From Candidatus Zixiibacteriota bacterium (GTDB lineage Bacteria; Zixibacteria; MSB-5A5; GN15; FEB-12): DNA of 47,139 nt. Below, in pieces: positions 33,275 to 35,864 of this stretch. Made by a program: the position numbers and the translations under genes. The stretch is taken from positions 3,177,474 to 3,224,612 of the forward strand of contig CP070674.1 in the NCBI GenBank assembly GCA_020351995.1, written 5' to 3'. How positions within the stretch are numbered: the stretch's first letter is position 1; each line of letters opens with the position of its first letter. The notes beneath the pieces are model-generated. The model was not told where the DNA came from, did not search any database, and saw only the letters and a program-made list of their open reading frames with translations.

Positions 33275-34786
33275 ATGGATTATCCGTTTTGGGACGTTGG
33301 CATCGGCTACGGAATCCTGATGGCTATCATCGCTGTCATCCATGTCTTTGTTTCCCATTTTGCCATCGGCGGAGGTCTGTACCTTGTGGTAGCCGAGAAA
33401 TCGGCACGCAAAAAGAATGATGCGCTGATGCTTCAGTTTCTGCGGAAGCTCAGCAAGTTCTTTGTTCTCGTAACGGTTGTGTTCGGCGCCCTCACCGGTG
33501 TCGGGATATGGTTCATCATTGGACTTCTCAACCCGACTGCCACCGAGGCTTTGATACACAATTTCGTCTGGGCCTGGGCGACCGAATGGACATTCTTTGT
33601 GATCGAGATAACGGCTGCCCTGATCTATTTCTATGGTTGGGATAGAATGTCGGCCAGAGGCCACATGATTGTCGGGTGGATTTATTTCGGCGCCGCCTGG
33701 ATGTCGCTCTTTGTCATCAATGGCATCATCACCTTCATGCTGACTCCCGGCGACTGGCTGGCTACCGGGAATGTCTGGGATGGCCTATTCAACCCCACAT
33801 TCTGGTCGTCGCTGTGGTTGCGCACCGGTATCTGCGTAATGCTGGCCGGACTTTATGCTCTGCTGGTTGCGGCGCGCTACAGGGCCGATGAATTCAAGGC
33901 CAGACTGGTTCGTTACAATGCCATCTGGGCGATTGTCGGTCTGGTGGTGATGGTTCCGACGTTTTACTGGTACTGGAGCGCTATTCCACAGGCGGTAGTG
34001 CAGACGGCGCTGGAACAGATGCCAACACCGATCGCATCGCTCTATGGCTCTTTCTGGAACGCCGGTCTGATCGCGGTTTTTCTGATTTTGTTCGGACTGC
34101 TCATTCCGAAGAAGCACAATATCGTCGTGGCTATTCTCTTGATGATATTCGGGTTGAGCTGGTTTGCCGAGTATGAATGGATGCGCGAGTCAATTCGCAA
34201 ACCCTACGTGATTTCCGCCTACATGTATGGCAATGCTGTCACCCTGGCTAAAGCTGATACTTACACAAAGGAAGGCTTACTTGGGAATATGGCCTTCCGG
34301 ACCGGAGATGACGGGGCCGACCTTTTCCGCAGAGCCTGCCGGAGTTGTCACACGGTTAACGGTTACAAGGCGCTCAAGCCCGTCTTTAACGGCACCGATG
34401 AGGCCTACATAAAGGCGATTGTGAAGGGGACGCACGTTGTTAAAGGGAACATGCCGCCATTCGTTGGCACCCATGGGGAAGCGGGTCTCATAGCGGCCCA
34501 TTTGTATGGCCGAGTTGACAGCCGTCATCTCAGCGAAATCTACGGGTTAAGTGGTGTAGGTCTTGGACGGAAGGTTTATGATGTGCGCTGTGGTATCTGT
34601 CACGAACTGGGAGGTTATAACGATAAGTGGGAATCATTGTCCGGCCTGACCGAGGCTGACTACAGTGACATTCTCGATATGGCCGGGGATCTCGGTGAGG
34701 AGATGCCGGACTTCACCGGCGACGACACCGAACGCCAGGCCTTGATTCAATACCTGATGTCATTGAATGAAGGGGGGACGCGATGA
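33275..34786 (+). CDS. Cytochrome bd-superfamily (CydA-like) subunit fused to di-heme cytochrome c
   Basis: A 503-residue membrane protein. Residues ~10-330 hold about eight helices with CydA landmarks: VIHVFVSHFAIGGG, with His23 matching the heme ligand His19 of E. coli CydA; ATEWTFFVIEITAALIYFYGWDRM, with Glu104 and Glu111 near Glu99 and Glu107; and ESIRKPYVI (Glu305, 308-311) matching the ECGRQPW segment. The quinol loop is absent and the helix that carries CydA His186 reads FWSSLWLRTG, with no His. Residues ~345-503 contain two c-type hemes, CRSCH (355-359) and CGICH (439-443), with MPPF and MPDF as likely axial Met. The donor is therefore probably a cytochrome rather than quinol. ATG 33275 follows GGGAG by eight bases; the frame from 33200 adds an unsupported extension. 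A possible promoter is TTGCCA/TATAAA (33200-33226). Translationally coupled to the next gene. Confidence 0.85.
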   Translation: MDYPFWDVGIGYGILMAIIAVIHVFVSHFAIGGGLYLVVAEKSARKKNDALMLQFLRKLSKFFVLVTVVFGALTGVGIWFIIGLLNPTATEALIHNFVWAWATEWTFFVIEITAALIYFYGWDRMSARGHMIVGWIYFGAAWMSLFVINGIITFMLTPGDWLATGNVWDGLFNPTFWSSLWLRTGICVMLAGLYALLVAARYRADEFKARLVRYNAIWAIVGLVVMVPTFYWYWSAIPQAVVQTALEQMPTPIASLYGSFWNAGLIAVFLILFGLLIPKKHNIVVAILLMIFGLSWFAEYEWMRESIRKPYVISAYMYGNAVTLAKADTYTKEGLLGNMAFRTGDDGADLFRRACRSCHTVNGYKALKPVFNGTDEAYIKAIVKGTHVVKGNMPPFVGTHGEAGLIAAHLYGRVDSRHLSEIYGLSGVGLGRKVYDVRCGICHELGGYNDKWESLSGLTEADYSDILDMAGDLGEEMPDFTGDDTERQALIQYLMSLNEGGTR

Positions 34787-35808
34787 ATTTACCGGATTAC
34801 AGTTTTCTCTCGGCGCCGCTGTGGCTGGTGACCGTTCTTCACATTGTGACGCTGACACTTCATTTCCTGGCCATGAATTTCATCCTGGGAGGAATCGTGG
34901 TGGTTCTGCTGGGGAAATTCAGCGAAAAATGGCAGCATCCGACAGTGCAGAAACTGGTAAAGTTTCTCCCCAACGCGATGGCCGCCACCATAACGTTTGG
35001 AGTAGCGCCGCTTCTATTTGTCCAGTTAGTGTTCGCCAAACAGATTTATTCGGCTTCCATCGTGAGTTCCTGGTTGTGGCTGATGATAGTAGTTGTCGCC
35101 ATCGTTGTCTACTACCTGCTGTACGCGTCGTCGTTCCGTTCCGGTCGGACCGGTAAAACAGGTGGGACCTGCCTGATTCTCGCTCTGATCGGTCTTTTGT
35201 ATATCTCGTTTGTGTATAGCTCGGTGTTTTCACTGGCGGAGCAACCGGAGCTCTATCGTTCTCTGTACGCCGGATCTCAGTCGGGGCTGGTGGTTAACAC
35301 CGAGATAGGTTCGTATATCTTCCGGTGGCTGCACATGCTACTGGGAGCTCTGACCGTGGGAAGTTTCTTTGCCGGCGTTGTGAGCCGGGACAACGAAGGC
35401 GCTTTTGCTATCGCCAAAATTTTCTATCTCTATGGTATGGTGGCGGCGATGGTACTCGGCCTGATCTACCTGTTCACCATGGGGGAATATATATTGCCGT
35501 TCATGCGCAGTGCGGCTGTCTGGTGGCTGGTGGTTTCGACTGTCCTGTCGCTGGGGTCACTGCATTTCTTCTTTAAGAAGAGATTTGTGGTATCGGGCTT
35601 GATGCTCATAGTCTCGCTTTTAGGTATGGTGACTATTCGGCACGCGGTGAGATTGATTCACCTTGACGGTATCTTCGACCCGGCTTCACTTCCGATGAAA
35701 CCCCAGTGGTCGATTTTCATCGTGTTCTTGCTCTGTTTTCTTATCGCGGCAGGACTGGTCTGGTACATGATGCGGCTTTACCTGTCAGACCGCAGCCAGA
35801 CTGCCTGA
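34783..35808 (+). CDS. Second CydA-like membrane subunit, partner of the bd-c protein
   Basis: A 341-residue protein with about eight or nine helices and no c-type heme site. Its first helix, LHFLAMNFILGG, resembles that of the upstream subunit, with His27 at the CydA His19 position. The segment IFRWLHMLLGALTVGSFFAG places His184 where CydA has heme b558 ligand His186, a residue the partner lacks. The Glu pair (Glu104/Glu111 of the partner) is absent here. I infer a CydA-A'-like paralogous heterodimer rather than a CydB subunit. It overlaps the upstream gene by four bases (ATGA) and ends at a strong inverted repeat. Confidence 0.75.
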   Translation: MNLPDYSFLSAPLWLVTVLHIVTLTLHFLAMNFILGGIVVVLLGKFSEKWQHPTVQKLVKFLPNAMAATITFGVAPLLFVQLVFAKQIYSASIVSSWLWLMIVVVAIVVYYLLYASSFRSGRTGKTGGTCLILALIGLLYISFVYSSVFSLAEQPELYRSLYAGSQSGLVVNTEIGSYIFRWLHMLLGALTVGSFFAGVVSRDNEGAFAIAKIFYLYGMVAAMVLGLIYLFTMGEYILPFMRSAAVWWLVVSTVLSLGSLHFFFKKRFVVSGLMLIVSLLGMVTIRHAVRLIHLDGIFDPASLPMKPQWSIFIVFLLCFLIAAGLVWYMMRLYLSDRSQTA

Positions 35809-35830: not shown

Positions 35831-35864
35831 AGAAAGGGTGAGTCCGGTTGGGCTCACCCTTTCT
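35831..35864. terminator. Inverted repeat between convergent genes, probable terminator
   Basis: AGAAAGGGTGAG and CTCACCCTTTCT form a perfect 12-bp stem with a 10-base loop, placed between the convergent bd-partner and TlpA genes. The downstream T-run is weak (TTGTATTTATAT), so termination efficiency is uncertain. Confidence 0.7.

Follow-up and report, generated by a model that had tools for sequence, protein, structure and literature searches.

A widespread pair of CydA-like proteins with a fused cytochrome c, a putative cytochrome c-driven member of the cytochrome bd superfamily

In the solved cytochrome bd oxidases, electrons are supplied by quinol and pass through heme b558 in CydA. The canonical CydAB enzymes of E. 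coli, Geobacillus and Mycobacterium serve here as the reference, and the diheme-site and heme-ligand residues are named by their E. coli numbering and their roles in cytochrome bd. Archaeal CydAA', as in Caldivirga, is built from two CydA paralogues per enzyme and oxidises quinol; it is not known to have a fused cytochrome c. An OR-C family has reportedly been delineated by Murali, Gennis and Hemp in 2021, comprising bd-superfamily CydA proteins without a quinol site, for which cytochrome c is thought to be the donor and to which the family name refers. In the other bd-superfamily literature that we searched, no description of OR-C anatomy was found. According to three papers, some bd families lack a quinol site, cytochrome c being the supposed donor for those of OR-N type, and CydAA' enzymes consist of two CydA-type subunits (PMC10839748, PMC12342949, PMC13189123). 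Two of these papers describe the OR-N CydAA' of Nitrospirales and Nitrospinota as one proposed enzyme formed by OR-N1 and OR-N2 CydA subunits, with putative cytochrome c oxidation and an unproven function (PMC10839748, PMC12342949).

Here, we describe a gene pair from a 47,139-nucleotide stretch of Candidatus Zixiibacteriota DNA (the window, meaning the whole stretch analysed), which belongs to a single-contig genome of 3.6 Mb. The original prediction held that the pair encodes a bd-superfamily heterodimer of CydA-like proteins with no quinol site and a fused cytochrome c, and this is supported by profile comparison, fold, loop length and topology. The two open reading frames overlap as it had stated, the stop codon of subunit A and the start codon of subunit B sharing the letters ATGA. 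The features are given below, with conservation counted over 79 subunit A and 72 subunit B sequences.

33275..34786, + strand: subunit A (ORF 1), 503 aa; CydA-like, 8 predicted transmembrane helices (residues 12-307), then two cytochrome c domains
33341..33358, + strand, codons 23-28: H23 (His19 equivalent) and H28; each 79/79, also 13/13 distant relatives
33584..33607, + strand, codons 104-111: Glu pair E104, E111 (E99, E107 of E. coli CydA); each 79/79, by profile alignment
33821..33823, + strand, codon 183: invariant arginine R183, at or beside the CydA His186 position; 79/79, 13/13 distant relatives
34175..34207, + strand, codons 301-311: E-x-x-R-E-x-x-R-K-P-Y, the CydA E445-x-x-R448-Q-P-W segment; E301, E305, R308 and P310 79/79, aligned to 5doq
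34337..34351, + strand: first CXXCH, C355-H359, distal Met M393; 79/79; Pfam Cytochrome_CBB3
34589..34603, + strand: second CXXCH, C439-H443, distal Met M477; 77/79
34783..35808, + strand: subunit B (ORF 2), 341 aa; CydA-like paralogue, 9 predicted transmembrane helices, no Pfam family, without the Glu pair
34861..34863, + strand: H27 of subunit B, on His19; 72/72; hhalign
35323..35334, + strand, codons 181-184: R-W-L-H (R181, H184) of subunit B, on E. coli K183-F-V-H186; R181 72/72, H184 71/72; hhalign
35626..35652, + strand, codons 282-290: M282, R286, H287 and R290 of subunit B; M282 71/72, R286 and R290 72/72
35831..35864, + strand: terminator-like hairpin of 15 pairs, 3' of subunit B, at the end of the two-gene unit

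Subunit A belongs to the cytochrome bd superfamily by its fold and its conserved diheme site. Residues 15-226 match Pfam Cyt_bd_oxida_I with 45 bits (cut-off 26), and profile comparison with CydA gives 96% at E 2e-9. The AlphaFold2 model (pLDDT 90) superimposes on solved CydA chains (ten entries) at Z 30-32 (VIA) and rmsd 2.7-3.6 A over 309-323 residues, the next-best family being alternative complex III at Z 19 or less. In the profile alignment, H23, E104 and E111 correspond to E. coli His19, Glu99 and Glu107, while E305, R308 and P310, aligned via the Geobacillus CydA (5doq), correspond to Glu445, Arg448 and Pro450. The His23, the Glu pair and the RKPY segment that had been predicted are thus all present, and the key residues are invariant. 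Two further invariant residues, H28, whose position is a proline in E. coli CydA, and E301, have no E. coli counterpart, and the site of subunit A may for that reason not be a standard bd site. H28 (33356-33358) lies in helix 1, five residues past H23, and could be an extra ligand.

Compared with canonical CydAB, with which it has the fold and the diheme-site residues in common, subunit A lacks the Q-loop, His186, Met393 and the ninth helix, and carries a fused cytochrome c. A proper His186 equivalent, the finding that would have contradicted the original prediction, was looked for: across the 79 sequences and the distant relatives there is no histidine at or near that position, R183 being invariant and residue 186 variable. 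As R181 of subunit B aligns with K183, R183 of subunit A may match K183 rather than His186; under either alignment subunit A has no histidine at the site. Likewise, no Met393 equivalent was found in the 79 sequences, whose helix 7 has no conserved residue at all. Helices 6 and 7 are joined by a loop of about 13 residues, so that the quinol loop is absent, also as predicted, and the positive-inside charge pattern is that of eight helices without a ninth. The same charge pattern places the cytochrome c domains that follow helix 8 on the outside (periplasmic). Both of these domains are recognised as Cytochrome_CBB3 stretches by Pfam, with the pair of CXXCH sites expected at the C-terminus lying at residues 355-359 and 439-443 and a distal methionine retained at each heme c site. 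Among homologues of subunit A, the number of CXXCH motifs ranges from one to four, Geobacter and Desulforhopalus relatives having three or four heme c sites. One 734-residue homologue (L036, G009:C233) has four CXXCH motifs, and its subunit B is close to the near family.

Subunit B yields nothing meaningful when its sequence is compared with Pfam and with solved structures. Its relation to CydA emerges from profiles: subunits A and B match each other at 89-93%, so that the alternative of a second subunit unrelated to CydA did not hold, whereas the match to the CydA profile is weak (hhalign, 10.7%, E 0.003) and that to CydB is nil (0.2%). The AlphaFold2 model (pLDDT 94, nine helices) is tied between CydB (7ose_B, Z 26.2) and CydA (5doq_A, Z 25.9), and the profiles resolve this tie only in part. 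As far as sequence goes, the second subunit is of a CydA-homologous type, as in CydAA', and here too the pair departs from canonical CydAB in having a partner that resembles CydA in sequence. The predicted H27 and H184 and the loss of the Glu pair were borne out, H184 being placed on His186 because R181 aligns with K183. At the CydA E445 position, H287 is replaced in part of the family (53 His and 16 Asp among 72 sequences). M241 was considered as a Met393 equivalent and dropped, for it is found in 60 of the 72 near-family sequences and is not kept in distant relatives. It is plausible, as originally predicted, that the low-spin heme would be located in subunit B, M241 being no more than a putative sixth ligand.

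Searching 84,980 named genomes gave 360 related loci. Among the best 80 of these 360, 77 have a homologue of subunit B immediately after subunit A, the other three lying at contig ends, and the same order is seen in 13/13 distant relatives. By submitter labels, the pair occurs in ten or more phyla, including Zixiibacteriota, Latescibacterota, Calditrichota, Acidobacteriota, Verrucomicrobiota, Planctomycetota, Myxococcota, Krumholzibacteriota, Armatimonadota, Thermodesulfobacteriota and others. Most loci come from metagenome bins, but Desulfosediminicola flagellatus and Desulforhopalus sp. IMCC35007, both named strains, are also represented. In a tree, subunit A and its relatives are split from 12 canonical CydA sequences by a branch with 100/100 support, and the 79/79 conservation rules out chance or a one-genome oddity. 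Outside close relatives, nothing but the A-B pair itself recurs among the neighbouring genes, and the surroundings of the pair offer no clue to its role. The arrangement had been thought to match no characterised enzyme; its anatomy is real, but it is not unique to this locus and represents a family that is common across many phyla.

The same genome carries a second, diverged A-B pair about 54 kb upstream, in which each subunit has one heme c, and still more distant pairs are found on plasmids of Agrobacterium, Thermus and Methylosinus. The division of ligands between the two subunits is retained in the second pair and in the plasmid pairs, except for H184, which is absent from the B subunits encoded on the Thermus and Methylosinus plasmids.

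The pair probably belongs to the OR-C family, with which it shares the absence of a quinol site; it has two heme c domains, cytochrome c being the putative donor. The OR-N CydAA' resembles it, as far as the accessible descriptions go, in having two CydA-type proteins per proposed enzyme and putative cytochrome c use, and differs in that those descriptions do not mention a fused cytochrome c (PMC10839748, PMC12342949). Archaeal CydAA' resembles it in its two CydA paralogues per enzyme. The pair is a widespread uncharacterised variant and not a new class, and its function seems not to have been put to any test in the literature.

No canonical CydA or CydB was found in the genome of the window, which encodes a single heme-copper oxidase, a single cytochrome b and three proteins of NrfD type. 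In the phylum, 129 genomes were compared, 39 with the pair and 90 without. CydB is rarer where the pair is present (8/39 versus 38/90, p 0.03) and a heme-copper oxidase is commoner (30/39 versus 47/90, p 0.01), both counts ignoring relatedness and including incomplete genomes, so that the pattern is only suggestive. Eight holders of the pair have neither CydAB nor a heme-copper oxidase, including one 100% complete genome (G012); these organisms may live anaerobically and use the enzyme for something else.

Reading a reaction, a heme content, an electron path through subunit B and any proton-motive function from the observed anatomy, conservation, pairing, fold and topology, we infer, with somewhat better than even confidence, that the pair is a heterodimeric cytochrome c:O2 reductase of the cytochrome bd superfamily. 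Subunit A would hold the diheme active site near the periplasmic side, formed by the equivalents of His19, Glu99, Glu107, Glu445 and Arg448. Electrons would pass from a soluble cytochrome c to the attached di-heme cytochrome c and on to this site, a route that would replace quinol oxidation via the Q-loop and low-spin heme b558; cytochrome c has probably replaced quinol as the electron source. Subunit B, a CydA-like paralogue from which the Glu pair has been lost, would stand in for CydB and would probably carry one b-type heme at His184 (possibly with His27), or else the remnant of such a site.

What subunit B contributes can be read in another way, which is compatible with an oxygen reductase and which we regard as quite possible if short of an even chance: it may be a heme-free structural partner like CydB, its histidines serving packing or a proton path, with cytochrome c feeding subunit A directly. 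The tied fold comparison and the loss of H184 in two distant relatives, together with an M241 that is not general, speak for such a role, whereas H27 and R181-x-x-H184 fall on CydA His19 and K183-x-x-His186 and are otherwise invariant, and the CydB profile is not matched. One may also suppose that the low-spin heme has moved to the CydA-like subunit B and that the attached cytochrome c supplies electrons to a modified diheme pocket containing H28 and E301, where O2 or another gas would be reduced by a route of no characterised bd oxidase; this stronger version we hold only tentatively, as a rather doubtful possibility.

The substrate itself may differ. Reduction of another small molecule, such as nitric oxide or peroxide, in the same diheme pocket with electrons from cytochrome c, and for detoxification rather than respiration, would fit the two extra invariants H28 and E301, the several holders that lack any other oxygen reductase, and the relatives in Desulforhopalus, Desulfosediminicola and Geobacter. 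We nevertheless judge it unlikely, given that all canonical diheme-site residues are retained, that no nitrogen-oxide gene recurs beside the pair and that heme-copper oxidases are commoner in its holders, as expected for aerobes. Electron flow might also be reversed, with quinol or another donor oxidised in the membrane part and electrons passed through the attached cytochrome c to periplasmic or extracellular acceptors, as in membrane cytochrome b/c quinol dehydrogenases. For this one could cite the one to four heme c sites attached and the resemblance, at lower Z (14-19), of both subunits to quinol-oxidising subunits of NrfD type in alternative complex III. The Q-loop is absent, however, the residues retained are those of an oxygen-reducing pocket and not of a quinol site, and quinol oxidation is already provided for in the genome by a cytochrome b and NrfD proteins, all of which make reversed flow quite improbable.

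Under the oxygen reductase reading, the oxygen site has been kept while quinol entry and heme b558 have been dropped, in ten or more phyla. Should the pair prove to be an oxygen reductase, a high-affinity oxidase may be present in many genomes that are scored as having none, and a bd enzyme driven by cytochrome c would offer a test of the need for a low-spin heme and a quinol site. The readable annotations of the plasmid relatives give just 'cytochrome c' together with 'hypothetical protein', 'cytochrome C protein' or the like.

Several minor observations accompany these results. The long-stemmed hairpin 3' of subunit B stands in the gap between convergent genes, subunit B on one side and thioredoxin-family genes on the other, and terminator-like sites are no more numerous in the region than in shuffled sequence. 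Shorter subunit A homologues (L030 and L031, 358-365 aa) have neither heme c domains nor a subunit B directly after them. Elsewhere in the source genome (G000:C1 1893070-1900226), an NrfD-type gene precedes the sole heme-copper oxidase gene by about 5 kb, and together these genes look like an alternative complex III-oxidase cluster. The second A-B pair (L032 7891-10804, G000:C1 about 3154390-3157303) lies outside the window and is adjoined on the other strand by a multicopper oxidase gene. Subunit B of the Methylosinus and Thermus plasmids (L132, L133, 6000-8600), besides having lost H184, has R-E-x-x-R in helix 8, like subunit A. The plasmid pairs of Agrobacterium (L134 6001-10545) and Methylosinus (L132 5983-10925) are followed by a gene for an ATP-binding protein and one for a response regulator, likely a two-component system.
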